64,000 nt of DNA from Thioclava sp. ES.031 (GTDB lineage Bacteria > Pseudomonadota > Alphaproteobacteria > Rhodobacterales > Rhodobacteraceae): the NCBI RefSeq assembly GCF_002563775.1, contig NZ_PDJO01000001.1, positions 1,808,001-1,872,000 of the forward strand, written 5' to 3'. Numbering within the stretch: position 1 is the first letter of the stretch; every line of letters starts with the position of its first letter. Positions 30,056-45,765 of this stretch are shown in pieces. The translations under genes were made by a program, and so were the position numbers. The notes below the pieces were generated by a model. The model was not told where the DNA came from. It searched no databases and saw only the letters and a program-made list of their open reading frames with translations.

Positions 30056-31804
<1,749 letters not shown>

Positions 31805-31998
31805 GGGGTCGATCGCGCACGGTTAAGATCCTCTCGGGGCGTCGGTTTCGGCTGTCGCCTTGAAGAGGGAGATGCTCGGAACAGGACAGCAGTCACTGAA
31901 GCAAGCTGATGCGGGGTTACGGCGTCTGCATCAGTTTTGCGAAATGCGATGTCTCAGCGAAGGAGGGCGGTGTGGATGCGACGCCCTCTACACAGCCA

Positions 31999-32904
31999 TC
32001 ACCAAACGCTCGAAAGCTGTTCGAAGAGGGCGGCAATTACCGGGTGATCTTTTCGGTCTTCCAGCGTCTGGATGACAAGGCATGCCGGGACGCGCAGTTC
32101 CTCACATACGGCGAGCCCGAAAGTTTGCCGTTGATGCAAGGCGACCGACTCTCGGCACAGGCTCAGTCCGACGCCCGAGCGGACCATCTCGAGCATCGAG
32201 GCTTCCTGATCGACCATCGCCACCGAATTCTGCACGCAGCCATGCGCGTCGAAAATTCGTTTCAGCAGCCGATTATGCACCGACGTCGGGGAGGTGCCGA
32301 TCCAAGGCAGGCTGGCCAGCTGAGCCCAGTCTGCACCGGCGACGCGCGCGTCCCATCCGACCGGCGCAATGACGCGGTAGTCGAAGTCAGCGAGTTTCCT
32401 GCTATGCAGCGGTCGCTCTGCGGGGATGCTGTCCACCGCGTCGGGCGAGGTCAGGTAGAAGCCGACATCGATCTGCTGGCGCGTCAGTTTCTCGAGGATC
32501 TCGCCGCTGACGCCATGTATCAGTTCCGTGCTGATATTGGGGTGCTCTGCGCCAAGACGGCTCAGCAGGCGACCGAGGCGAATGAATTCCGGATCGACGA
32601 TGGTGCCGATCTTCAGCTTTCCCGACACCTGACCGCACTGCTTGCTGGCGCAGCGGCGGAACTCGGCCATTGCGTTGAGCACCTGCTCGGCCTTTGGCAG
32701 CATCGCGATTCCGTCCGGAGTGAGGTCCAGACCGCGTGGCGTGCGCTTGAACAGCGTGATGCCGGTCTCTTCGCTCAGTCGCTTGATCTGATGACTGATC
32801 GCTGGCTGCGTGAGGTTGAGCACCTCCGCCGCGCGAGAGACGCTGCCCTCGCGGGCCACCGTCGCGAAGGCCAGAATACTGTTTAGGTTCGAGAATCTTT
32901 CCAT
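31999..32904 (-). CDS. LysR-family regulator, divergent from the DMSP-like cluster
   Basis: 301 residues with the N-terminal winged helix-turn-helix (ILAFATVAREGSVSRAAEVLNLTQPAISHQIKRLSEETGITLFKR) and a LysR substrate domain. It is divergent from the GMC dehydrogenase, CaiB and BCCT genes and is their likely regulator. By context it would correspond to DddR, the LysR regulator of DMSP clusters. An 8-3-8 palindrome covers the bases up to and into its start codon, so self-repression or mRNA hairpin control is plausible. Confidence 0.9.
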   Translation of the reverse strand: MERFSNLNSILAFATVAREGSVSRAAEVLNLTQPAISHQIKRLSEETGITLFKRTPRGLDLTPDGIAMLPKAEQVLNAMAEFRRCASKQCGQVSGKLKIGTIVDPEFIRLGRLLSRLGAEHPNISTELIHGVSGEILEKLTRQQIDVGFYLTSPDAVDSIPAERPLHSRKLADFDYRVIAPVGWDARVAGADWAQLASLPWIGTSPTSVHNRLLKRIFDAHGCVQNSVAMVDQEASMLEMVRSGVGLSLCRESVALHQRQTFGLAVCEELRVPACLVIQTLEDRKDHPVIAALFEQLSSVW

Positions 32905-32921
32905 ATTAGGAAACCTAATAT
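32903..32921. promoter_or_regulatory. Perfect palindrome at the LysR start codon
   Basis: ATATTAGG-AAA-CCTAATAT, 8-3-8 inverted repeat, whose last bases overlap the ATG of the LysR gene on the minus strand. It includes the only AGG that could act as its ribosome site. It fits a LysR T-N11-A box and would also form an mRNA hairpin. Confidence 0.65.
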
Positions 32922-32939
32922 CACGCTGAAAAATTTGTC

Positions 32940-32949
32940 ATTAGCTAAT
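32940..32949. promoter_or_regulatory. Second palindrome ATTAGCTAAT
   Basis: A 10-base perfect palindrome sharing ATTAG/CTAAT with the site at 32903-32921, centred about 32 bases away (three helical turns). A LysR tetramer could bind both, bending the divergent promoter. Confidence 0.45.
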
Positions 32950-33000
32950 TCCACATAAGCTTCTTAGGCCTTTGCGAAGTTGCTGCGCTGGGAGGAGCGT

Positions 33001-33087
33001 ATGGCACTCGAAAGGCCCCTGCGTGCGGGGCGTTTTTCCGGGTGTCCTGTCATCTCTGGTGCTGCGGGACAGACCAGGAGGACATAG
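33001..33087 (+). CDS. Putative 28-residue leader peptide upstream of the GMC dehydrogenase
   Basis: An ATG at 33001 follows GGGAGGAG with good spacing. The frame runs 28 codons ([12 protein letters not shown] through QTRRT) to a TAG at 33085-33087, two bases before the dehydrogenase ATG. Its own AGGAGG-containing 3' end is the ribosome site of the next gene, so translation would be coupled. A terminator-like hairpin lies inside it. It may be a chance frame; the strong ribosome site is the main support. Confidence 0.4.
33014..33037 (+). terminator. Terminator-like hairpin in the dehydrogenase leader
   Basis: GCCCC (33015-33019) pairs with GGGGC (33027-33031) around a seven-base loop, followed by GTTTTT at 33032-33037. 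It stands between a divergent promoter and the dehydrogenase, where an ordinary end-of-gene terminator is not expected, so it may be an attenuator or a relic. Confidence 0.55.
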
Positions 33088-33089
33088 CC

Positions 33090-34754
33090 ATGCCGAATAC
33101 TCAGACGGAGTTTGACTACATCGTGATCGGTGGGGGCTCTGCGGGATGTCTTCTGGCCAACCGGCTGAGCGCGGATCCGGCCAACCGGGTGTTGCTGCTC
33201 GAAGCGGGGAAGGCGGATACCTATCCGTGGATCCATATCCCGGTCGGCTATCTCTATTGCATCGGCAATCCGCGCACCGACTGGATGTATAACACCGAGC
33301 CCGACAAGGGGCTCAACGGGCGTATCCTGCGGTATCCGCGCGGCAAGACGCTGGGCGGGTGCTCGTCGATCAACGGCATGATCTACATGCGCGGCCAGTC
33401 GCGTGACTATGACAACTGGGCGCGGCTGAGCGGTGAGGAGGAATGGGGCTGGGAGGCCTCCCTGCGCGACTTCAAGGCCCATGAAGATCATTGCAAGCTC
33501 GATGACGGCGCCGATCCGGCGACCGGAGAGAATGGCCGGTTTTCCGATATGCACGGCCATGGCGGGGAATGGCGCGTCGAGAAGCAGCGCCTGCGTTGGG
33601 ACGTGCTGGACAGTTTCGCGGATGCGGCGGTTGAGGCCGGGATCGAGAAGACGGACGATTTCAACAGCGGCGACAATGCGGGCGTTGGCTATTTCGATGT
33701 GAACCAGCGCTCTGGCTGGCGGTGGAATAGCTCGAAAGCCTTTCTGAGACCTGCGAAAGCCCGCGCCAATCTGACGGTCTGGACCGAGGCGCAGGTCGAA
33801 AAGCTCACCTTTGAGAAAGACGCGAACGGCACGCCGCGCTGCACGGGTGCCCGCGTCAATCGGAACGGGCAGAGCACGACCGTCAGCGCGAAGACTGAAA
33901 CGCTGCTGTCGGCAGGCGCGATCAATTCGCCGAAGATCCTGCAGCTGTCGGGCATCGGGCCTGCGGAGCTGCTGCAATCGCATGGGATCGAGGTGCTGCG
34001 GGATGCGCCTGTGGGGGAGAACCTGCAGGACCACCTGCAGATCCGTGCCGTCTACAAGGTCAAAGGCACGCGCACGCTCAACACCCTGGCCGGAAACCTT
34101 TGGGGCAAGGCGATGATCGGCGCGGAATATCTGCTGAAACGCTCTGGCCCGATGAGCATGTCGCCCAGCCAGCTTGGCGCCTTCACGCGGTCCGATGCCG
34201 GGCGCAGCTACGCCAATCTCGAATATCACGTGCAGCCCCTCAGCCTCGAAGCTTTCGGCGAGGATCTGCATGACTTCCCGGCGATGACGGTCAGCGTCTG
34301 CAACCTCAACCCGACGAGCCGGGGCCATGTGCGCATCCGGTCGGCGAATTTCCGGGATGCGCCGATGATTTCGCCCAATTACCTCGCCACCGAGGATGAC
34401 CGGAAGGTTGCCGCAGACAGCCTGCGGCAGGTGCGCGAGATCATGTCGCAGCCCGCGATGAAGGCCTACGAGCCCGAGGAATTCAAACCCGGGCCGCAAT
34501 ATCAAAGCGATGAAGAACTCGCCAAACTGGCCGGCGACATCGCGAACACGATCTTCCACCCTGTCGGTACGGTGAAGATGGGGCGCGCGGATGACGAAAC
34601 CGCCGTGCTCGACCCGCATCTGCGCGTCAAAGGCGTCACCGGTCTGCGCGTCGTCGACGCCAGCGTCATGCCCGAGATCACCAGCGGCAACACCAATTCC
34701 CCGACCTTGATGATCGCCGAAAAAGCGGCCCGCTGGGTTCTTGCCGGCCGATAG
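33090..34754 (+). CDS. dddA: GMC-family FAD-dependent alcohol dehydrogenase (DddA-like)
   Basis: 554 residues with the FAD-binding [17 protein letters not shown] at the N-terminus, the GMC signature [19 protein letters not shown] near residue 90 and the catalytic His in [11 protein letters not shown] near 490. Relatives include choline dehydrogenase. Followed directly by a DddD-like gene, it matches DddA of Halomonas DMSP clusters, a flavin dehydrogenase that oxidises 3-hydroxypropionate to malonate semialdehyde. AGGAGG lies upstream of the ATG. Choline or another alcohol remains possible; the symbol rests on context. Confidence 0.72.
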
Positions 34755-34791
34755 GCCGTTGCCTTGCGTCTTTTTGCCCTCTGGAGAGAAC

Positions 34792-37302
34792 ATGCGTAAA
34801 TCGTTTTCCAATCTGCCCCTGACCGGTGTCAAAGTCATCGATTTCGGGCAGTATATCGCCGGGCCCGCAGTCGCGATGCTGCTGGGCGATCTGGGGGCCA
34901 CGGTCGTGCATATCGACCCGCCCGACGGCCCGATGTGGGACAGCCCGGCCAATGCCGCGCTGATGCGCAACAAGCTGATCGTGAATCTGGATCTGAAATC
35001 CGAAGACGGTCTGGCCAAGGCGCGCGCGCTTTGTGACGAGGCCGATATCATCGTCGAGAACTTCCGCCCCGGGAAGCTTGCGAAACTCGGGATCGATTTC
35101 GCCGCGATGCGCGAAGAGCGGCCCGAACTGATCACGATTTCCATTCCCGGCTTTGCCTCGAATGACGAACTCCGCCGCGAGCAGCGCGCCTTCGAGAGCG
35201 TCGTGGCGGCCAGCTCGGGCGTGTTCACCGACATGGGGCTCAACCGAGTTCTGATGGGGTTGAACCCGTCCTTCTCGCCGCTGCCGCTGTCGTCGTCCTA
35301 TGCGGCGCAGATCGCCGCCTCCGCGACGGTTCTCGCGTTGCAGTCGCGCCAGTTGACGGGGCTTGGAGATCAGATCGAGGTGCCGCTCGCGGCGGCCGTG
35401 ATGGAGGGTCTGTGCTACAACTCCATTCAGGTCTCCGACATGCCCAAACGCTACCTCACCCAGCGCGAGAACGAGATCGAGCGGCGCCGGATCGAAGGCC
35501 TGCCGATGAACGTGTCTTACGAGGACCTTCAGGAACTGCTCGACCCGTTCTTCCGCAGCTACATGTGCAAGGACGGGCGCATGTTCTACGTCGTCTGCCC
35601 CAGCCACAAGAACCACGCGCGCCGCTGCCTCGAGGTTCTGGGCATCTACGAGGAGATGATCGCGGAAGGCCTGCAGGAAGAGGAAAACACCTACAAGCCG
35701 CAGGCGGAGTGGAAGACCGATACCTCGCTTGGCGTCTATCCAATGCCGAAGTTCTGGGCCGACAAGCTCGCCGCGCGCATGAAGGAGGTGTTCATGACCC
35801 GCACCTCGCATGAGTGGAAGCGCATGTTCGGGCGGGCCGGGGTGCCGGGCGCGCCGCAGCGTTGGCTGCAGGAGTGGATCAACGACGAATTCGCGGAGGC
35901 CTCCGGGCTGATGATCGACGTCTGGGATCCCGAATATGGCGAGATGACCCAGCCCGGCCCGGTGGTCTGGATGGAGGAGAGCGGCGAGGAAGCCCTGACC
36001 CCCGAGCCGCGCCGGTGGGTGGAGTTCAACGAGGCGCTGAAGGTGCTGCGCAAGCTGCGCACCGACATTCCCGACCCCGAGGACGGCATCGCTCAGGAGG
36101 GCTGGCTGTCGGGCGTGCGCGTGCTGGATATGTGCAACGTGATCGCAGGGCCGCATGCGGCCAGCTATCTTGCGCGCTTCGGGGCGGAGGTGATCAAGAT
36201 CGATCCGGCCCATCCGCTCTATGACAGCTGGAACACCGTGGTCTATGGCCTGAGCCAGGGGCGCGGCAAACGGTCGATCCTGGCCGATGTGAAATCCGAG
36301 CATGGACGGAAGGCTTTCGAAGATCTGGTGAAATCCGTCGACGTCATTTTCTGGAACGCGCCCGACAGCCAGATCAAGCGGATGGGGCTGGATGCCGACA
36401 GTCTGCGCAAGCTGAACCCGGAGGCGATCTTCTGCAAGCTCGACTGCTTCAGTGGCGTGCGGCGCGGGGTGCGCAGCGACTACATCGGCTATGACGATCT
36501 GGTGCAGGCGACCACCGGTATCATGCTGCGCTTCGGCGGGGCTATGGACCGGCCCGAAGAGCACGCGCATGTCGGTACGATCGACGTGATGTGCGGCTTT
36601 GGCGGGGCGCTGGCCGTGGCCGCGGCGCTTTACCAGAAACACCGGTTTGGCCGGATCGGGCGGGGGCGCACGTCGCTCAGCTCGAATAGCGGGCTGCTGC
36701 AGATCCCGTTCGCCTATGATTTCCGGGGGCGGGGGCTGTTCGACGAACCCTCGGGCCCCGAGGTCAACGGTTACGATCCGCTCAGCCGGTTCTACAGCAC
36801 GGCATCGGGTATCTATATCCTGCTCAGCGCCTACGAGACGGACCTGCCGCGTTTTCGCAATGTCGAAGGGCTCGAGGACTTCCCGGATGTCCCCGAGGAA
36901 GAGCGCGCTGCGTTCCTTGCGGGCGCCTTCCAGTCGCTTCCGGCGACGGAGTGGATCGAGCGTCTGCGCGCGGCGGATATCGGCTGCGCGATCTGCCAGA
37001 ATATCGACGCGCTTCGCGCCGAGAACCTGCGCGAACCCGATGGGACGCCGGGCACCGACCGGGGCAGCTATTCCTTCTCGCTCTATCACGATCACCCGAG
37101 CGGACATCAGGTCATCCAACTCGATCCCTACGCGGTAAGACCCACGCGCGGCCGGGTCTTCGCCTTGGCGCCGACGGAGAAATTCGGGTCGTCCACGCGG
37201 CAGATCTTGAATGAATTGGGCTATTCGGATTCCGCCGTGGAGAGGATGCTGAAATCCGGTCAGCTCAGCGAAAGCTGGAGTGAGGAATACCTGCCCAGCT
37301 AA
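34792..37302 (+). CDS. dddD: Tandem CaiB-domain CoA-transferase/lyase (DddD-like DMSP lyase)
   Basis: 836 residues made of two consecutive class III CoA-transferase domains (about 1-410 and 435-836). Both begin with the family pattern: GVKVIDFGQYIAGPAVAMLLGDLGA, then GVRVLDMCNVIAGPHAASYLARFGA. This length and duplication are characteristic of DddD, which forms DMS and 3-hydroxypropionyl-CoA from DMSP. The N-domain lacks the usual catalytic Asp (IEVPLAAAVME where VxVSMQDAV is typical). Asp598 in GTIDVMCGFGG is the best conserved C-domain candidate. It is flanked by DddA- and DddT-like genes. Carnitine or betaine CoA chemistry is the alternative. Confidence 0.78.
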   Translation: MRKSFSNLPLTGVKVIDFGQYIAGPAVAMLLGDLGATVVHIDPPDGPMWDSPANAALMRNKLIVNLDLKSEDGLAKARALCDEADIIVENFRPGKLAKLGIDFAAMREERPELITISIPGFASNDELRREQRAFESVVAASSGVFTDMGLNRVLMGLNPSFSPLPLSSSYAAQIAASATVLALQSRQLTGLGDQIEVPLAAAVMEGLCYNSIQVSDMPKRYLTQRENEIERRRIEGLPMNVSYEDLQELLDPFFRSYMCKDGRMFYVVCPSHKNHARRCLEVLGIYEEMIAEGLQEEENTYKPQAEWKTDTSLGVYPMPKFWADKLAARMKEVFMTRTSHEWKRMFGRAGVPGAPQRWLQEWINDEFAEASGLMIDVWDPEYGEMTQPGPVVWMEESGEEALTPEPRRWVEFNEALKVLRKLRTDIPDPEDGIAQEGWLSGVRVLDMCNVIAGPHAASYLARFGAEVIKIDPAHPLYDSWNTVVYGLSQGRGKRSILADVKSEHGRKAFEDLVKSVDVIFWNAPDSQIKRMGLDADSLRKLNPEAIFCKLDCFSGVRRGVRSDYIGYDDLVQATTGIMLRFGGAMDRPEEHAHVGTIDVMCGFGGALAVAAALYQKHRFGRIGRGRTSLSSNSGLLQIPFAYDFRGRGLFDEPSGPEVNGYDPLSRFYSTASGIYILLSAYETDLPRFRNVEGLEDFPDVPEEERAAFLAGAFQSLPATEWIERLRAADIGCAICQNIDALRAENLREPDGTPGTDRGSYSFSLYHDHPSGHQVIQLDPYAVRPTRGRVFALAPTEKFGSSTRQILNELGYSDSAVERMLKSGQLSESWSEEYLPS

Positions 37303-37311
37303 GGGCAGCTC

Positions 37312-37343
37312 AGAGGCGTCCGCTCGAAGGGCGCCTCTTTTTT
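37312..37343 (+). terminator. Rho-independent terminator after the DddD-like gene
   Basis: A ten-pair stem (AGAGGCGTCC with GGGCGCCTCT, one G-U pair) and a run of six T. It separates the dehydrogenase/CaiB transcript from the BCCT gene, so the transporter probably has its own promoter. Confidence 0.9.
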
Positions 37344-37462
37344 GCGCTCTAAGAAGCTGATCGCAAAGGAAAGTTTCACAATTGTTCGGGTTGGTCATGT
37401 TGAACGCAGGTTCAGCAAACGGAGGAGGCTGCCCGAACCTCAAGTGCCAGAACGGAGGAAAC

Positions 37463-39109
37463 ATGGCCAAGACACCCCCATTGATGGATTTGCATATCCC
37501 AACCGCGAGCAGCGGGTTCTATTCGGGCTTTTCCAAAAGCGTCGCGATCCCGTCGAAGATTCTTGTCAGCGCGTTGATCGTCTGGGCGCTCGCAGTGCCG
37601 CAAACCGCCGACACGGTTCTCAATGCGCTCAACGGGGCTATCCTGAAGAGTTTCGCGACCTGGTATATCTATGTCGCGGCCTCTTTCCTGATCCTATGCG
37701 TCGGTCTGGCGCTGATGCCATCCACCGGCAAGCTCAAGCTCGGACGGCCGGGCGATGAGCCGGAATTCTCGCGGTTTTCGTGGTTCTCGATGATGTTCGG
37801 GGCGGGCATCGGGATCGGGATGCTCACCTTCGCCACCGCCGAGCCGATGTATCATTTCGCGAACAACCCCAATGTCATCATGGGCCAGACCACCGGCTCG
37901 GGTGCGGATAACGTGACGGCCGCCTATGTCTGGTCTTTCCTGCATTGGGGCTTTTCCGCATGGGCCTGTTATGCGCTCGTCGGTCTGTGTCTGGCCTATT
38001 TTTCCTATCGTCGGAACCTGCCGCTGACCGTGCGCTCCGCGCTGACGCCGCTCTTCGGGTCGCGGCTGTCCGGGTTCGGCGGCCATTTCGTCGATGTCGT
38101 CGCGGTGGTCGCAACGATCCTTGGGGTCGCGCAGACGCTGGGCTTCGGCGTCGAGCAATTCGTCGCCGGTCTCGATCGCGTGGGCTTTGGCAGCTGGATC
38201 CTCAAGGCGGATGGGAGCCCTAGCACCGCCGGCATTGTCGTCGCGCTCGTCATCATTCTCGGGGCCTCGACGCTCTCCGCACTCTCGGGTGTCGGCAAGG
38301 GCATCAAATGGCTGTCGAACCTGAACATGGGCCTCAGCTTCTTCCTGTTGGCCTTCTTCATCCTCTTCGGGTCGACCTTCTTCGGTCTGCATGCGCTGTT
38401 CTCCGGCTTGCTTGCCTATGTGGAACAGCTTCCGCGCTTGCTCTTCACCGTCTGGCATCCCGACGGCACCAAGACTGGCGATGCGTTGGCCGCGTGGCAG
38501 GGCAGCTGGTCGGTCTTCTACTGGGCGTGGTGGATCGCCTTCGCGCCCTTCGTCGGTGTCTTCCTCGCACGGATCTCGCGCGGCAGAAGCATTCGGGAAT
38601 ACGTCATGGGCGCGGTCATCGTGCCGTCCCTGATGTGCTTCGTCTGGTTCACGCTGGTGGGCGGCACGGCGATCGACATGACGCTGAACGGCACCGCGGG
38701 CGACGCGATCTCCAGCGCGGGTCAGGAAAGCCAGCTTTTCGTGATGCTCGACCTGATCTTGCATGGCGGCGTGGCCTGGGCGATGGCGCTGATCGTCGTG
38801 GTCCTGCTGTTGACCTATCTCGTGACGACCGCGGACTCGGCGATCCTGATCGTCAACACGATCAATGCCGCGGGTGAGGAAAGCCCGAAAGGCCGTGGTC
38901 ATATCGTCTTCTGGGGCGTCGCGCTCAGCTTCGTCGTGGGCGCCATGCTCCTTGTCGGAGGGCTCGAAGCGATCAAAACGGCCATGGTGATCGGCGCATT
39001 GCCATTCAGCTTCGTGATGTTCCTGATGTGCATCGCGCTCGTCAAAGCGGTGATCCGGGACGGGATCCGCGAAAGAAACGGGGTGCAGAGCATCCACGTA
39101 GCGAGCTGA
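37463..39109 (+). CDS. dddT: BCCT-family betaine/choline/DMSP transporter (DddT-like)
   Basis: 548 residues with about twelve transmembrane helices and the BCCT landmarks: MFGAGIGIGMLTFATAEPMYHF (TM3 region, near residue 115), HWGFSAWACYALVGLCLAYF, and FYWAWWIAFAPFVGVFLARISRGRSIREY near 350, where the Trp-rich box binds the trimethylammonium or dimethylsulfonium group. The TM3 motif GAGIGIGM resembles the GxGxGx forms of Na+- or H+-coupled carriers. GGAGGAAAC precedes the ATG. Location after a DddD-like gene suggests DMSP import; betaine or carnitine also possible. Confidence 0.85.
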   Translation: MAKTPPLMDLHIPTASSGFYSGFSKSVAIPSKILVSALIVWALAVPQTADTVLNALNGAILKSFATWYIYVAASFLILCVGLALMPSTGKLKLGRPGDEPEFSRFSWFSMMFGAGIGIGMLTFATAEPMYHFANNPNVIMGQTTGSGADNVTAAYVWSFLHWGFSAWACYALVGLCLAYFSYRRNLPLTVRSALTPLFGSRLSGFGGHFVDVVAVVATILGVAQTLGFGVEQFVAGLDRVGFGSWILKADGSPSTAGIVVALVIILGASTLSALSGVGKGIKWLSNLNMGLSFFLLAFFILFGSTFFGLHALFSGLLAYVEQLPRLLFTVWHPDGTKTGDALAAWQGSWSVFYWAWWIAFAPFVGVFLARISRGRSIREYVMGAVIVPSLMCFVWFTLVGGTAIDMTLNGTAGDAISSAGQESQLFVMLDLILHGGVAWAMALIVVVLLLTYLVTTADSAILIVNTINAAGEESPKGRGHIVFWGVALSFVVGAMLLVGGLEAIKTAMVIGALPFSFVMFLMCIALVKAVIRDGIRERNGVQSIHVAS

Positions 39110-39362
39110 GCACCGCAATCGCCCGCCGCACCACGCCAGACCAGACATCGGCGCGGCGGACGATTGGCAAAAGGGGCCGGGTGTTGCGACGAAGACCTTC
39201 TCGGGCGACCATCGCATCGATGTCGCATCGAGGCATTGGAGCGACGTATGTGCTCGATTGGAGGGCGAAAAATCGTCGTAGGGGCGGGGCACCTTCAATC
39301 CGGGTTTGCGCCCGGACGCCACGCGGTTCATTCTCCGCCTCGAATTTTCCCCGGAGGCCATC

Positions 39363-39779
39363 ATGGCACGCCAGACAAAGCTCATCCTCTGCCCGATCAA
39401 CCTGCGCCACGCTCAGGTCGAGCATCATGCCTATATGGAAGCCGTCGAGATGGCGCGGCGGCGCCGTGCGAAGCTGATCGTGGCGACGATCGCGCCCGAG
39501 ATCGAGCGTAACCTCAACATTTACAACTCGGATACCTATTGGGGCCAGCAGCTGCGCAAATTCCTCAACGACAATCCCGCCAGCGGGGTGACCGAGGTCG
39601 AGATGGTCGTGCGCAAGGGCGCGGTGCATCGCCAGATCGTCAAGCTGGCGGATGAGCGCAAGGTGGACCTGATCGTGATGGAAGCGGCCAACCCGAAGGT
39701 GCAGGATTACCTTCTGGGCACCACAGCGTCTCATGTGGTGACCCATGCGGAGTGCTCGGTCTACGTCGTGCGGAGCTAA
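39363..39779 (+). CDS. Universal stress protein family (UspA-like)
   Basis: 138 residues of the Usp fold: the strand KLILCPINL at the start, an alpha/beta core, VDLIVMEAA, and the C-terminal nucleotide-binding stretch GTTASHVVTHAECSVYVVRS, slightly altered from the ATP-binding GxSxxxxV consensus. GGAGG precedes the ATG. It follows the BCCT gene by 253 bases on the same strand and may be tied to osmolyte or stress uptake; stand-alone Usp proteins often regulate transporters. Confidence 0.85.
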   Translation: MARQTKLILCPINLRHAQVEHHAYMEAVEMARRRRAKLIVATIAPEIERNLNIYNSDTYWGQQLRKFLNDNPASGVTEVEMVVRKGAVHRQIVKLADERKVDLIVMEAANPKVQDYLLGTTASHVVTHAECSVYVVRS

Positions 39780-40084
39780 GGGCTGGCCCGGGGTACAGCT
39801 ATTCCGGTCTGGCCTCTGCAGCGGCGCCCGGTACGCGGCGAAGCCGCAGGGCGCGCGCCGGCCCGTCCCGGCGGGCTGGCGCATTGGCCAACCGCGCAAG
39901 ACGTTCATTCGGGAGAGGGGTTTGGCGGCCATAAAGCGCTACCGCTCACAGCTCATGATGCGCCATCCCACGGACCGGTGCGCGCCCTGCTTCCAAGGCA
40001 ACCCAAGCTGATATTCGGGAAAAGTCCGCGCCTGTCGCGCGGCGGGTCGGACCCGCCCCAATGCAGGGGCGGATCCCTTTCTTC
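39780..40084. other. Convergent intergenic region between usp and proV-like genes
   Basis: 305 bases of GC-rich sequence without a supportable gene. It ends in the hairpin listed at 40050. No promoter is expected here because both flanking genes end in it. Confidence 0.6.
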
Positions 40085-40088
40085 TTAC
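40050..40088. terminator. Terminator hairpin between convergent genes
   Basis: GGACCCGCCCC (40050-40060) pairs with GGGGCGGATCC (40067-40077), ten of eleven positions, followed by CTTTCTTCTT. It ends the usp transcript and probably also the proV-like one. Confidence 0.7.
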
Positions 40089-41134
40089 CTCTTGGCGGTC
40101 TCGCCCGAGGATTGCGCGGGCACCAGCGCGCGCATGATCGAGGGCATGGTGAGGCTGCCGACCGGCTCGCCCCCCATCACCACGCGGTAGCGGCGGTCGA
40201 GCGCCCCTTCGGCCTTGGCGATGACGCTTTCGAGGTTGTCGTTGCCGTCGATATCGCCCGACATTTCGCCTTCCGGCGCGCCGCGCTCCATCACCGAGCG
40301 CACGCGCAACACGCGGGCGCGGTTGATGTCGGCCACGAAGTCCTCGATGTAGGGATCCGCCGGGTTGAGCAGGATCTCCTGCGGCTCGCCCTGCTGGACC
40401 ACCCGACCATCGTTCAGGATCACCAGGTGATCGGCGAGCTTGAGCGCTTCGTCCAGATCGTGGGTGATGAAGATGATGGTCTTGTGCAGCTCGGCCTGAA
40501 GCTCGAGCAGCAGGTCCTGCATGTCGGTTCGGATCAGCGGATCGAGCGCCGAGAAAGCTTCGTCCATCAGCATGATGTCCGAGTTCGACGCCAGCGCCCG
40601 GGCGATGCCCACACGCTGCTGCATCCCGCCCGAGAGCTGGTGCGGGTGGTGATCCCCGTAGCCCCCGAGCCCGACGCGGTCGAGCCATTTCTCGGCCTCC
40701 GCGACATAGTCGGAGGCCGGGAAGCCGCGGGTGGCCAGCGCCATCGCCGTGTTCTCCGCCACCGTGCGGTGGGGCAGAAGGGCGAATTTCTGGAACACCA
40801 TCGACATCCGCTCGCGCCGCAACGTGCGCAGCTGCGCCTCGTTATAGTCGAGGATGTTCTCGCCATTGACGAGAACCTCCCCCGCGGTCGGCTCGATGAG
40901 CCGGTTGAGGTGCCGGATCAGCGTGGATTTACCCGAGCCCGAAAGCCCCATGATGACGGTGATCTCACCCTCGTTCATGTCCACGTTGATGTCGTTGAGC
41001 CCGAGCACGTGATTGCGCTTCTCGAGCAGCTCCGGCTTGCCCATGCCCGCTTTGACGTCTTCGAGCGCCGCTTGCGGATCCGACCCGAAGATCTTGTAGA
41101 GGTGTCGGATCGAGACCTTGATATCTTTCGTCAT
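40085..41134 (-). CDS. proV: Glycine betaine/proline-type ABC transporter ATP-binding protein
   Basis: About 349 residues. Walker A is GLSGSGKST near residue 62, the signature LSGGMQQRVGIARAL near 168 and Walker B IMLMDEAFSALD follows. The N-terminal HLYKIFG and the length beyond the core are typical of ProV/OpuAA. The C-terminal region is short for a double CBS module and looks degenerate. GAGGAG precedes the ATG. It is the last gene of a proX-proW-proV operon facing the DMSP-like cluster. Confidence 0.92.
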   Translation of the reverse strand: MTKDIKVSIRHLYKIFGSDPQAALEDVKAGMGKPELLEKRNHVLGLNDINVDMNEGEITVIMGLSGSGKSTLIRHLNRLIEPTAGEVLVNGENILDYNEAQLRTLRRERMSMVFQKFALLPHRTVAENTAMALATRGFPASDYVAEAEKWLDRVGLGGYGDHHPHQLSGGMQQRVGIARALASNSDIMLMDEAFSALDPLIRTDMQDLLLELQAELHKTIIFITHDLDEALKLADHLVILNDGRVVQQGEPQEILLNPADPYIEDFVADINRARVLRVRSVMERGAPEGEMSGDIDGNDNLESVIAKAEGALDRRYRVVMGGEPVGSLTMPSIMRALVPAQSSGETAKR

Positions 41135-41144
41135 GCCTGTCTCC

Positions 41145-42188
41145 TCACTTCCGGCTCTTGCTGGTGTCGATGCGTGCAAGCGACGCTTTCGTCACACGGT
41201 CGAGCAGGATCGCGATGATCACGATCCCGAAGCCAGCCACGAGACCCGTGCCCAGTTCGAGCGACCGGATGCCGCGCAGCACGAGCACGCCCAGACCCGG
41301 AGCCGAGACGAGCGAAGCGATCACCACCATGGCGAGGCTCATCATGATCGTCTGGTTCACGCCAGCCATGATGTTGGGCAGCGCGAGCGGGATCTGCACC
41401 CCGAACAGCTTCTGGCGCTTGGTCATGCCGAAGGCGTCGGCCGCCTCGATCACGTCGGGATCGACCAGACGGATGCCGAGATCGGTCAGGCGCACCACGG
41501 GTACGATCGCATAGAGGATGATCGCGATGCCGTAGAGCTTCGGCTCGGTGACCGAGAACAGGAAGATCAGCGGGATCAGGTAAACAAAGGGCGGCAGCGT
41601 CTGCAGCATGTCGAGGATCGGGATCACGGTGCGCTGGAGCCGGTCGCTCCGCGACATCGCAATGCCTATGGGCACCCCGAAGAGGACGCATATGAAGGCA
41701 CAGACGAAGATGATCGCCAGCGTCTGCATGGCCGCCTCATAGTGATTGATGAAGGCGAGGAAGGCGATCGAGACCAGCACGAAGACCACCAGTCTCCAGG
41801 AGCGCGTCACGAGCCAGGTGATCAGCATCAGGATCGGCACCATCAGCCACCACGGCGTGTTGGTCATGATCCAGAGCATGTCGCGCAGGGCCCAGCTCAG
41901 CGGCTGGGTCAGCGGGTCCACGACGGCGCGCAGCCCGCCGCGGATCGCGAGGAACCCGTCCTCGAGGCCTTGCGTCACGTCGCGCGAGGGCGGGATCGCC
42001 CCGCAGGCCTTGTTGAGTGCGTCGAGCGAGGGGAAGGGCCAGTTCCAGAGGCTGGGGCCCTGCGTCGTGGTGCCGTCGGTCTGCGCGATCAGGTCGGCCA
42101 TCGACGTCATGCCGCCGCCGCCGTCGCCGCCGGCCGAACACCAGTCCTTCAGCCCCACCGCGTTGAAGAAATTCTCGTAAGCTGCCAT
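41145..42188 (-). CDS. proW: Glycine betaine/proline-type ABC transporter permease
   Basis: About 347 residues with a long hydrophilic N-terminus (about 1-85), six or seven membrane helices and the coupling loop VIEAADAFGMTKRQKLFGVQIPLALPNIMAG near residue 255. This matches ProW/OpuAB. The start at MAAYENFF has no strong ribosome site, so the N-terminus is uncertain by some residues. It lies ten bases before proV. Confidence 0.92.
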   Translation of the reverse strand: MAAYENFFNAVGLKDWCSAGGDGGGGMTSMADLIAQTDGTTTQGPSLWNWPFPSLDALNKACGAIPPSRDVTQGLEDGFLAIRGGLRAVVDPLTQPLSWALRDMLWIMTNTPWWLMVPILMLITWLVTRSWRLVVFVLVSIAFLAFINHYEAAMQTLAIIFVCAFICVLFGVPIGIAMSRSDRLQRTVIPILDMLQTLPPFVYLIPLIFLFSVTEPKLYGIAIILYAIVPVVRLTDLGIRLVDPDVIEAADAFGMTKRQKLFGVQIPLALPNIMAGVNQTIMMSLAMVVIASLVSAPGLGVLVLRGIRSLELGTGLVAGFGIVIIAILLDRVTKASLARIDTSKSRK

Positions 42189-42302
42189 TGGTTTTCCGGG
42201 TCGCCGAAGGAGACCCGTCCCATATTGTTGCGTGATTGATCGAAAAAGGACGGGGCCTGTCCCGGCCCCGTCCATGTGTTGCGCGTCAGGCGCGCGTCAC
42301 GA

Positions 42303-43298
42303 TCATCCGCCGATCAGCTTCGAAAGCTTCTTCTGGGCATCGGCATCGAGCCAGTTCTTCCAGGTGTCCTGATAGTTCTTGATGAAGTAGACAGCCGTCT
42401 CTTCACCCGAGGCTTTGTTCTCGTCCTGCCAGGCGAGCAGCTTCGACATGGTGTCGGTCTTGAAGCTCATCTTCGAGAAGAACTCGGTCTCGGCCGGGTG
42501 GGTCTTCGCGAAGTCGCTCGTCACCGAGGTCAGCACCGGAGCGGCCGGGAAGTCCGAAACCTGCGGGTTCGACGCGTCCTTGTTCTGCAGATTGTCGAAC
42601 TTGGCCTTGTCGTAATCGCCAAGTTTCACGCGGGTCATGTCGTAGTTGCCCATGACCACGGTCGGACCCCAGTAGTAGCCGAACCACGGCTTCTTGTCGG
42701 CGAAGGCCGAACCGATCGACGAGGCGAGCGTCTGGCCGGAGCCGTGGTTGAACACCTTGATGCCCGAGCTCTCGAGGTCGAGCGCCTTGATCAGATTGTC
42801 GCTCACGACGCGGCAGCCCCAGCCGTCGGGGCAGTTGTTGAACGTGCCGCCGACCCATTCGGGGTGCGCCATGACGCCCTCGATGGTCTTCAGCTCGGGG
42901 TGCTCTTTGGCGAGGTAGGTGGGGATCCACCAGCCTTCGACGCCACCCGGCTGAAGCGTCTTGGCGACGCGCTTGATCTTGCCTTCGCTCTCGAGCTTCT
43001 TGTAGGCATCGCCGGCCGAGTTCAGCCACAGGTTGGTGACGACGTCGGGGCGGCCGTTTTCGGCGATCGAGGTAATCGCGGGAATCGTGTCGGATTTGAC
43101 GAGGCTGGTGTTGCAGCCATAGCCCTGATCCAGCATGAACTTCGCGATGTTGGTGGTGACCTCGGCGGCAGCCCAGTTCATCTGGGCGATCGAGATGTCA
43201 CCGCATTGCTCGGCAGCGCGGGCGGTGCCCGTCTGTGCCGCAAAGCCAGTCACCATAGCCGTCGCACCGGCGACCGCGAGAAGTGTCGTCTTCCGCAT
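42303..43298 (-). CDS. proX: Glycine betaine/choline-type ABC substrate-binding protein
   Basis: About 331 residues with a signal peptide cleaved near ARA/AEQCGD. The OpuAC domain shows the aromatic ligand residues expected for a quaternary ammonium or sulfonium cage (MNWAAAEV, GGVEGWWIPTYL, KPWFGYYWGPTVVMG) and Cys pairs (FNNCPDGWGC) likely to form a disulfide. GAGGAAAA precedes the ATG. It is first in the operon. Betaine, choline or DMSP are all possible ligands. Confidence 0.92.
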   Translation of the reverse strand: MRKTTLLAVAGATAMVTGFAAQTGTARAAEQCGDISIAQMNWAAAEVTTNIAKFMLDQGYGCNTSLVKSDTIPAITSIAENGRPDVVTNLWLNSAGDAYKKLESEGKIKRVAKTLQPGGVEGWWIPTYLAKEHPELKTIEGVMAHPEWVGGTFNNCPDGWGCRVVSDNLIKALDLESSGIKVFNHGSGQTLASSIGSAFADKKPWFGYYWGPTVVMGNYDMTRVKLGDYDKAKFDNLQNKDASNPQVSDFPAAPVLTSVTSDFAKTHPAETEFFSKMSFKTDTMSKLLAWQDENKASGEETAVYFIKNYQDTWKNWLDADAQKKLSKLIGG

Positions 43299-44058
43299 AT
43301 GTTTTCCTCTCATCCGTTGGATTGTTTACGATCGTGCTCGGATCGCATTCGCGTTGCGCGTGATAAGACCGTCAGACCTCCCCGCGCGGGCGTGCATCCA
43401 CCCGGGGGAGCGTCGCGGCTCATCGTCGACATTCAGGTTGCGCAGTGCACGCGAATGCGCCCTCTCGACGATTGCCGCAAACGGTATCGTCCGCATCCCC
43501 GATCAGCAATCGTCCGCCAGTCACATTAATTTGAGAAAAGCGTCATGGAACCCAATGATTACTTGAGGAAAACCTGTTAATCGCGGCGTGACGTCGGCCA
43601 TCGGGCGGCGCGACGGGCTACCCTCCGAGACGGTGTCTGACTGGGGGTTCGGGCGCATCATCCGGCGAGGTTTTTGCGACGGGCTACATCGCTTCGATCT
43701 GCGGCTTTGCGACAGGTCACCAGCCCTCAAGTTCCTCCAATGCGGCCATTTTCGAGAACTCAGCTTCGGCGCGGCGGCAGGGGAGTGAGGCGCGAAAAAC
43801 CGGCCCTGTTTTCGACGTCTCGCCGCGCCACTGTTTTCGCGGAAATCAGGCTTTGCGGATGTCACGCGGATAGTAGTAGATCGGCAAAGTTCTCTCCGGG
43901 GGTGGCAATCCTTGCTCTCGGGCGCGGCGGATTGGGGGCGCGTGGGTCGGTTTTGTCGCACGTTACGCAACGTCATCTTTTCATAGTTTCGCCGTAATCC
44001 GGCGTTAACCAGAGGGGATCACCCTCAGCCCTCGACGGTTTCGAGATGGAGGCCCGGC
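43299..44058. other. Long intergenic region between proX and trgA
   Basis: 760 bases between divergent genes with no gene I can support. An AT-richer block at about 43515-43580 could hold the proX promoter, which would give a leader of about 200 bases. A 5-4-5 inverted repeat ACGTT-ACGC-AACGT lies at 43960-43973, about 85 bases upstream of trgA. The rest shows nothing distinctive and may hide a small RNA. Confidence 0.5.
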
Positions 44059-44544
44059 ATGATGCAACGAATCGCGGTGCGCAATTCTCAGGCGCAAATC
44101 CCAACTCTCGCGAAGCTTTTCGCGGCGCTGGCGCTTGGGGCGACCGGGGTCTTCGCCGCGCAACAGATCACGCCTGCGATCCCGGCCGGTGTCGACGGGG
44201 CGAAAGAGCTCTGGCTGATCATGGGCTCCTTCGGGCTTCTTGTCGGCTGGCGCGTCGTGGGCCTGTCGGCGGGACGGCGCTGGGTCGATGCGATCAATGA
44301 CGGGCTGCGCGGCGGGATCTACGTCTTGCTGTGGACCTTCTCCTTCCTCGGCGCGATGCAGATGCTGAAACTGGCGCTGCGGATGCGCTATGACGATGTG
44401 CTCTCCGCCGTGACCGACGTCATCGGGCAGGGCGCGGCGATCGGGGTCGCGTCGCTCGGGATCATGCCGGTCGTGACGCTGGGCCTGGGCGCAGTGGGGG
44501 CGGGGCTCCTGTCGGAGTTCGCGCATCGCCGCTTCGGCCGCTGA
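44059..44544 (+). CDS. trgA: TrgA-family membrane protein (tellurite resistance)
   Basis: 161 residues with four hydrophobic segments. The pattern IPTLAKLFAALALGA, GLLVGWRVVGLSAGRRWVDAINDGLRGG, then LRMRYDDVLSAV matches TrgA, described with trgB and cysK at a tellurite-resistance locus of Rhodobacter sphaeroides. The same three genes follow here in order. Biochemical role is unknown. Two adjacent ATG codons open the frame. Confidence 0.85.
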   Translation: MMQRIAVRNSQAQIPTLAKLFAALALGATGVFAAQQITPAIPAGVDGAKELWLIMGSFGLLVGWRVVGLSAGRRWVDAINDGLRGGIYVLLWTFSFLGAMQMLKLALRMRYDDVLSAVTDVIGQGAAIGVASLGIMPVVTLGLGAVGAGLLSEFAHRRFGR

Positions 44545-44631
44545 TCGCCGATCACACCATTCCCTCCGCTTGACATCGCGCGCCTGCCTTGCAGGTTGAG
44601 GCGCATGATGCGCCAAGCTGCGGGGACGGTC

Positions 44632-45765
44632 ATGCAACCACATTTCTTTTACGGCACGCTGTGTCATCCGCCTCTGTTGGAGGCGGTCATCGGACGTGTG
44701 CCGCAGCTCGTTCCGGCGCGGCTGGAGGGCTTTGCCCCGCATGAGGCCTGTCGCGAGGGGCAGGGCTTGGGCTTTCCGATCCTGATCGCGACACCCGGCG
44801 CAGTGACGCGCGGCGTTGTGGCCGATTTGACCGAGGCCGAGGCCGAGCGCATCGCATGGTACGAGGATGGCTACGACGCCGATTTCCGCGAACTCGAGAC
44901 CGGATCGGGGCCGCGCGAGGCGAAGCTGTGGCTGCCGAAAGCGGGTCGCTGGGATGTGGGCGACGCGTGGACCCTTGGAGACTGGGCGCCGAAATGGGCC
45001 GCTCTGAAGACCGAGGCCGCGCGGCTCTTCATCGCCGAGGCGCAGGCCATGGGGCCCGACGCCGCCAATGCGCGCTATCACGCGATCCTCGTGCGCGCGG
45101 CTTCTACTTTACGCGCGCGCGCGACCCCGATGGCGCAGCATTTGCGCCGGGATCTGCATGAGGGCGACATCAAGATCGACGCGCAACAGACTGCTTACGC
45201 GAAGTTTTTCGCGGTCGAGGACTACAAGCTGGAACATCGGCTGTTCGCCGGCGGGATGAGCGCCAAGCTCGATCGGGCGGCTTTCGTCTCGGGCGATGCG
45301 AGCGTCGTTCTGCCTTACGATCCGGTGCGCGACCGGGTGATGCTGATCGAACAGATCCGCACCGGACCGCTGGCGCGGGGCGAGCCGAACCCGTGGATGA
45401 TCGAGGCGATCGCGGGCCGGGTCGATCCCGGCGAGACACCCGAGGAGGCGGCGCTGCGCGAGGCCGGTGAGGAGGCCGGGATCACGATTGCGCGCCTGAT
45501 CGAGGCGCCGCGCTACTACCCGTCGCCCGGTGCGAAAAGCGAATTCGTCTATTCCTATATCGGGATCGCTGATCTGCCCGACGAGGCTGCACAGCTTGGC
45601 GGCAAGGCCGATGAGCACGAAGATATCCGCGCGCATCTGGTGCCCTTCGAGCGCTTGATGACGCTGGTTGCGACCGGCGAGGCGGGCAATGCGCCGCTGG
45701 TCGTGCTCGCGCTCTGGCTTGCCGGGCAGCGCGCCGCACTGCAGCGGATGGCTGGCGTCGCGTAA
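44632..45765 (+). CDS. trgB: TrgB: gamma-glutamylcyclotransferase-like plus NUDIX ADP-ribose pyrophosphatase
   Basis: About 377 residues. An N-terminal AIG2/GGCT-like domain (HFFYGTLCHPPLLEAVIG, residues 1-120) precedes a NUDIX hydrolase domain (about 185-365). The Nudix box GRVDPGETPEEAALREAGEEAGI is intact. The C-terminal half is like ADP-ribose pyrophosphatases. Start is the ATG directly before QPHFFYGTL; an ATG 12 codons upstream is the alternative. It lies between trgA and cysK, as in the Rhodobacter locus. Confidence 0.87.
   Translation: MQPHFFYGTLCHPPLLEAVIGRVPQLVPARLEGFAPHEACREGQGLGFPILIATPGAVTRGVVADLTEAEAERIAWYEDGYDADFRELETGSGPREAKLWLPKAGRWDVGDAWTLGDWAPKWAALKTEAARLFIAEAQAMGPDAANARYHAILVRAASTLRARATPMAQHLRRDLHEGDIKIDAQQTAYAKFFAVEDYKLEHRLFAGGMSAKLDRAAFVSGDASVVLPYDPVRDRVMLIEQIRTGPLARGEPNPWMIEAIAGRVDPGETPEEAALREAGEEAGITIARLIEAPRYYPSPGAKSEFVYSYIGIADLPDEAAQLGGKADEHEDIRAHLVPFERLMTLVATGEAGNAPLVVLALWLAGQRAALQRMAGVA

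Follow-up and report, generated by a model that had tools for sequence, protein, structure and literature searches.

A predicted DddD-type dimethylsulfoniopropionate catabolic cluster beside a probable importer after guaB in Thioclava sp. ES.031

Dimethylsulfoniopropionate (DMSP) is an algal osmolyte, and dimethylsulfide (DMS) is a climate-active gas, a main biogenic sulfur gas of the ocean. A stretch of 64,000 nucleotides from Thioclava sp. ES.031 (the window; coordinates count from its first letter unless the genome is named) carries a gene for an 836-residue protein with two CaiB-type domains, flanked by genes for a GMC oxidoreductase and a BCCT carrier, with a divergent LysR-type gene. Does this locus encode DddD-type DMSP cleavage, as a preliminary description made from the sequence alone had proposed, or does the two-domain enzyme serve another substrate? 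And how did the genes come to lie where they do? We consider it very likely that the locus, alongside a probable DMSP importer, holds a catabolic cluster for DMSP of the DddD type. This answer draws on gene content, family membership, retained residues, a gene order and a box that are conserved, and on how the site compares among relatives; catalysis, transport and regulation would follow from these. The gene set itself is of a known kind; the island, in which importer and cleavage modules lie together, is the more interesting part. Three points go beyond the preliminary description: a DmpXWV-like importer alongside the cluster, an apparent insertion after guaB, and a DddL-type protein elsewhere in the genome.

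The two-domain CoA-transferase

The 836-residue protein (34792-37302, forward strand, ATG start) matches CoA_transf_3 (PF02515) in two stretches (8.3e-113), as expected from the two CaiB-type domains already described. In tblastn comparisons with plasmids it is 66% identical to DddD of Sinorhizobium fredii NGR234 and 81% to that of Phaeobacter piscinae, and the NGR234 enzyme stands in the table of functionally ratified enzymes of PMC8520302. Could such a protein instead act on carnitine, crotonobetaine, glycine betaine, dimethylsulfonioacetate or another betaine-like or carboxylic substrate, as part of a betaine-catabolism operon? The neighbours, betaine-type carriers and a GMC enzyme resembling choline dehydrogenase, would suit such a role, and a related clade at 41-44% identity occurs in other surroundings, so the layout may serve other tasks. 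Against this, the protein scores far below the NCBIfam cut-offs for carnitine CoA-transferase (CaiB; 108.8 bits, cut-off 413) and formyl CoA-transferase (Frc; 180.9 bits, cut-off 442), and we rejected both identities, since a tree of half-domains also places it apart from them. For that tree, 11 two-domain proteins were split and combined with six single-domain ones (CaiB, Frc and YfdE of E. coli and three of this genome). The seven DddD N halves formed one clade and the seven C halves another (100/99 each), and both halves of the window protein fell with the DddD halves, apart from CaiB, Frc and YfdE; the ratified DddD in our trees is that of NGR234, the other DddD sequences being proxies. 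Clustering with carnitine-type CoA-transferases, which the preliminary description had named as grounds for abandoning the DddD proposal, was thus not what we found. Given also that the LysR protein retains most of a pocket for 3-hydroxypropionate (3-HP), as detailed below, we regard a betaine-like substrate as highly improbable and return to DddD.

A full-length tree of 53 of 119 sequences, built by a quick method with SH-aLRT support only, grouped the window DddD with DddDs of Thioclava, Salipiger, Sagittula marina, Roseovarius and Poseidonocella (support 99, seven rows), nested in a 20-row clade that also contains HTCC2083. In the 119-row set, from which eight entries recognised by name as duplicates or as our own copies were left out, along with two single-domain proteins of this genome and three loci that were partial (L120, L136 and L137; L numbers are our locus handles), Asp598 of the C half aligns with Asp169 of Frc and CaiB and is Asp in every row (109 distinct). 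The equivalent column of the N half is Pro in all 101 rows at 50% identity or more, leaving the catalytic Asp in the C half only; it is Gly, Thr or Ala, never Pro, in 14 of 14 rows at 36-50%, and Pro in four rows below 36%. We take the catalytic Asp of DddD to be one such residue, Asp602 of the Marinomonas enzyme. By family membership the assignment of the 836-residue protein to DddD is well supported, with DMSP cleavage as its predicted activity, and so is the DddD reading of the locus put forward in the preliminary description.

The related clade deserves a remark of its own. These two-domain CoA-transferases, 41-44% identical to the window DddD, keep the C-half Asp and lack the N-half Pro; they include a protein of Dinoroseobacter shibae plasmid pDSHI01 (L015), one of Ruegeria sp. 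AD91A (L016) and nine matches in a search of 394 genomes of the family. At the first two loci the annotation shows neither a GMC nor a BCCT gene next to the CoA-transferase gene; one has a dimethylformamidase-like gene as neighbour, the other an aminotransferase gene among others. Screens at about 40% identity could mislabel members of this clade as DddD.

Gene order, regulation and transport

The setting of the gene agrees with the preliminary description in open reading frames and Pfam content. The LysR-type gene (31999-32904, reverse strand) encodes 301 residues with HTH_1 (PF00126) and LysR_substrate (PF03466); the GMC gene (33090-34754, forward strand) encodes GMC_oxred_N (2.2e-45) and GMC_oxred_C, and the BCCT gene (37463-39109, forward strand) matches PF02028 (2.1e-147). 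The Pfam matches of all four proteins, DddD included, are far beyond chance. The GMC gene may start at GTG 33042 or at ATG 33090 (554 residues, good ribosome site), and the BCCT gene at TTG 37382 or ATG 37463 (548 residues). The order recurs: of 80 named relatives, 52 have LysR-GMC-DddD and 24 the full LysR-GMC-DddD-BCCT order, and the GMC gene lies immediately 5' of dddD in 59. The tally comprises all 80 named loci retained from 407 encoding a relative, so its counts lean toward close relatives; seven of the loci are short upstream and five short downstream.

What would the divergent regulator sense? AcuZ, a LysR protein of Halomonas D47, binds 3-HP and acrylate, not DMSP, and its pocket residues are printed in PMC13104084, those for 3-HP being T129, S130, Y174, S206, H208, Q231 and E232. 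The LysR protein of the dddD locus of Vreelandella venusta has all 11 printed AcuZ residues at identical numbers and therefore served as a bridge for mapping. Through it, the window LysR keeps six of the seven residues of the 3-HP site and three of the four of the acrylate site. S130, Y174, S206, H208 and E232 are identical in 70 of 70 rows (the window protein and 69 LysRs at 44% identity or more); an unrelated LysR from a Phaeobacter plasmid, taken for comparison, has none of the seven 3-HP-pocket residues. We read the divergent LysR, which is DddR/AcuZ-like, as a predicted 3-HP sensor.

A candidate operator for it lies at 32905-32944, between the divergent LysR and GMC genes. Its first box, the palindrome ATTA-N7-TAATAT (32905-32921), abuts the LysR start; allowing one mismatch, it stands at this offset in 46 of the 60 divergent intergenic regions compared, that of the window among them; in mononucleotide shuffles it occurred never at that offset and in about 0.7% anywhere in the region, a figure that overstates significance because the regions are related sequences and the shuffles mononucleotide ones. 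Duplicate loci (L164, L165 and L166) had been dropped beforehand. A second box, TTTGTCATTAG (32934-32944), follows and was judged by eye only. Since LysR-like motifs upstream of DMSP genes in other strains are already noted in PMC13104084, boxes of this sort are no novelty as such; the one here provides a concrete candidate operator.

The GMC protein falls under both choline dehydrogenase cut-offs (548 of 605 bits and 469 of 732 bits). With its fold and its linkage to dddD, this points to a DddA-like enzyme that would oxidize 3-HP. The BCCT protein scores 300 bits to a trimethylamine carrier, 269 to BetP and 185 to a chain named DddT, which we took to be that of Psychrobacter D2. At the Na1-equivalent places of BetP (T246, T250) it reads T and V, and at the Na2-equivalent places T and T. 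All 36 hits at 60% identity or more with six places aligned (34 distinct, two genomes counted twice) read T, V, T, T, D and S, Psychrobacter, Leucothrix and roseobacter carriers at 65% identity or more among them, and ten further cut hits read T and V. With a single hydrophilic residue at Na1 and the Na2 site kept, the window protein belongs to the BetP branch; PMC13270143 describes a class of this one-hydrophilic-residue kind among carriers linked to dddD. By linkage we call it DddT, a predicted DMSP transporter. Of the DddR, DddA and DddT set proposed earlier, candidate genes are all in place; the carrier departs from the Psychrobacter D2 type of DddT.

Beyond the carrier, genes on the reverse strand (40085-43313) encode a DmpXWV-like ATP-binding cassette (ABC) importer. 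The DmpV-like ATPase (40085-41179) reaches 337.3 bits against a cut-off of 326.6 for the betaine/proline/choline ATPase subfamily; the DmpW-like permease (41145-42275) matches PF00528, its ChoW/ProW-type NCBIfam matches lying below their cut-offs; and the DmpX-like predicted DMSP-binding protein (42303-43313) scores 351 bits to PDB 7yle. We took 7yle to be RnDmpX, as its numbering fits all eight DMSP-pocket residues printed in PMC10030565, although the record itself does not say so. Seven of the eight, read off the alignment, are kept (W35, T64, W84, E113, W152, Y200 and W202). A literature search on the two systems together gave the DmpXWV paper itself alone (PMC10030565); the binding protein linked to dddD that this paper mentions, in strain KLH11, differs in kind. 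The ABC system is a probable DMSP importer, judged from its similarity to DmpXWV. A gene for a universal stress protein (39306-39779, forward strand, PF00582) belongs with the importer, beside which it also lies in four relatives (G682, G688, G686 and G691, in our genome numbering).

Several observations weigh against this overall reading. In the half-domain tree the deep joins are poorly supported and their branches long, as are those of the E. coli proteins, so that only the grouping of the DddD halves was used. In the LysR protein T129 of the 3-HP site is replaced by V and V201 of the acrylate site by G, and pocket residue A153 of DmpX is G. The DddT of Psychrobacter D2, hydrophobic at both Na1-equivalent places, was rejected as a model for the T,V carrier described above. 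SPOA0231, about 70% identical to the dddD-linked binding protein of KLH11, is reported not to bind DMSP (PMC10030565), which makes linkage to dddD by itself weak evidence for a DMSP importer. Finally, as the preliminary description had remarked, the cluster has no DddC: none of the genome's 22 matches to a methylmalonate-semialdehyde dehydrogenase model lies in the window range, whereas MmsA is inside the locus in 20 of the 80 relatives. One match alone exceeds the cut-off (1436130-1437566 of the genome, 650 against 448.5 bits, adjoined by a LysR-type gene), and the role of DddC would have to fall to this enzyme. The genome also encodes an AcuI/YhdH-type reductase that exceeds its cut-off.

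Taken as a DMSP pathway, the system could work as follows. DMSP would enter through the BCCT carrier and presumably also the DmpXWV-like importer; DddD would load CoA on it through Asp598 of the C half and cleave it to DMS and 3-HP, or the CoA ester of 3-HP. The DddA-like enzyme would then convert 3-HP to malonate semialdehyde, which the unlinked dehydrogenase may turn into acetyl-CoA, and the LysR protein would sense 3-HP and act from the conserved operator next to its own start codon.

The 12.2-kb segment after guaB

Cluster and importer lie in a segment of 12.2 kb (31807-43962) between guaB (30356-31804) and a gene at 44059. We examined this site in eight of 15 relatives. In five of them guaB and the 44059-type gene are adjacent: in G691, G682 and G688, whose flanks are 94-95% identical, guaB (window 31806) is followed by about 70 bases and then by window 43963, and about 300 bases separate the two genes in G687 and G540. 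For the remaining three, G686, G690 and G684, the stretch taken contained no match to the right flank; G686 has other DNA after guaB. The segment therefore appears to be a young insertion.

Its contents fall into two modules with different matches among the relatives. Module A (31994-39166), the LysR-GMC-DddD-BCCT genes, is 91.6% identical in DNA to contig C67 of G691 and 87.0% to G690, with 31994 and 39165/39166 as the limits of each alignment; G681 matches it in two pieces (85.0% and 81.3%). Along C67 identity drops from 95-98% to 79-91% past about 35.6 kb, within dddD, which suggests that module A is a mosaic cassette. Module B (39215-43571), the universal stress protein and DmpVWX genes, has counterparts in G682, at 2.56 Mb (96.8% identical), and on contig C60 of G691 (95.5%); both lie at another site than here. 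The 7.4 kb that adjoin module B in G682 and G691 are present in this genome at 1672615-1680044 (95.7-95.8% identical), without module B. As this match ends where module B would start, the module seems to have left that place for the guaB site, at a distance of about 167 kb.

Could the segment be ancestral and have been lost from the sister species? Gene clusters are often lost, both modules occur elsewhere in the genus, and three of the eight relatives lack a plain empty site. G691, however, holds both modules on contigs different from each other and from that of guaB, while its guaB and 44059 genes are adjacent; module B sits beside the shared 7.4-kb neighbour in G682 and G691, a neighbour that lacks it here; and loss would require re-siting in several sisters. 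We consider ancestry of the segment unlikely. For its arrival after guaB we favour, with some reserve, the view that a DddR-DddA-DddD-DddT cassette, patchy in the genus, landed there and that a resident DmpXWV module joined it from about 167 kb away. DddD occurs in five of 16 genus genomes (in one split over two contigs), and DmpX at 85% identity or more in seven. If this view is right, a 3-HP-controlled lyase has come to lie beside an ABC importer of high affinity and a carrier coupled to Na+. The sister genomes with an empty site, together with one that has the modules apart, form a natural series on whether importer-lyase clustering alters the use of DMSP.

The scan for mobile genes at the ends of the segment covered the frame 43521-43976 and the 44059 gene, neither of which has a Pfam family. 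Within 31700-45000 the only repeat pairs reaching across the two ends are short and no longer than chance would give, for example one of 15 nt at 31716/43487. Base composition of the insert is unremarkable, and 43573-43962 had no match outside this genome among the loci compared. Some side observations concern these sites. At window 31805-31806 (L188) the DNA after guaB differs in G686 as well, and the site may be an insertion hotspot. In G682 module B adjoins a tRNA-Ser(GCT) gene (L160, 13939-14028), with type I restriction genes beyond, and the DNA that borders the cluster on the left in Thioclava sp. JE_KL1, at a contig end (L020/L164, 1-150), resembles an insertion-sequence end when judged by eye.

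Distribution, a predicted second lyase and related systems

How common is the DddD route in this group? Of the 394 family genomes, 23 matched at 1e-60. In 16 the match is of the DddD type, two of these having the 41-44% type as well, and seven have the latter only. The 16, our own included, comprise 15 full-length proteins at 64% identity or more and one partial at 83%. This fits the expectation, voiced in the preliminary description, that DddD is the less common route in Rhodobacterales. Published roseobacter DddDs include those of Sagittula stellata E-37, Citreicella SE45 and HTCC2083 (PMC3338564), and Thioclava electrotropha ElOx9 is credited with the genomic potential for DMSP use with DMS release, in an excerpt that leaves the genes unnamed (PMC9226611).

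About 40 kb left of the window lies a gene for a DddL-type protein, over the cut-off for PF16867. It is 69% identical to an annotated DddL over residues 118-339 (65% of the frame) and scores weakly, at 27 bits, to DddQ structures; its 339-residue open frame is probably over-long at the N end. This raises the possibility, compatible with a DddD-type cluster, that DddD is real but minor or dispensable, with DddL as main lyase and DddD as a carbon route at high DMSP. Among the 16 genus genomes, 11 have a match, in some cases incomplete or interrupted by stops in its frame, against five with DddD, and DddL of Thioclava pacifica is among the ratified enzymes (PMC8520302). On the other side, all four cluster genes are open and the box at the LysR gene is conserved; relative flux is not readable from sequence. 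We hold this division of labour to be possible, yet less likely than not. With DddL, DddD, a regulator of the 3-HP type and two probable importers, this Thioclava makes an exception that can be tested.

Which known systems come closest? The NGR234 locus on pNGR234b has the same order, with DddD 66%, the divergent LysR 49% and the DddA-like GMC protein 74% identical, but its downstream ABC importer has a binding protein 37% identical to that of the window, and no BCCT match lies within the 18.5-kb stretch read. Plasmid pP13_b of P. piscinae P13 shares the LysR-GMC-DddD-BCCT order (DddD 81%); it differs in being typed as conjugative, in carrying a second LysR and an annotated CoA-acylating MmsA, a DddC candidate, after the carrier, and in having no DmpXWV within the stretch read. 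HTCC2083 has a DddD 81% identical, with LysR and GMC before dddD, and the DddD of S. marina is 91% identical; unlike here, neither locus has a BCCT match directly after dddD. The dddD clusters of Halomonas (D47 with AcuZ, PMC13104084; HTNK1, PMC3338564) have, like ours, DddA rather than DddB, and a LysR that senses 3-HP, as predicted for ours, but include acuN, acuK and DddC; the BCCT protein of V. venusta, their proxy, is only 32% identical to the window carrier. The importer is closest to DmpXWV of Ruegeria pomeroyi and RnDmpX (PMC10030565), from which it differs in lying physically beside dddD.

The DddDs of two Gammaproteobacteria, Leucothrix and Paraglaciecola (L063 and L065), are 77-78% identical to that of the window and fall in the otherwise alphaproteobacterial 20-row clade, a placement such as lateral transfer would give.

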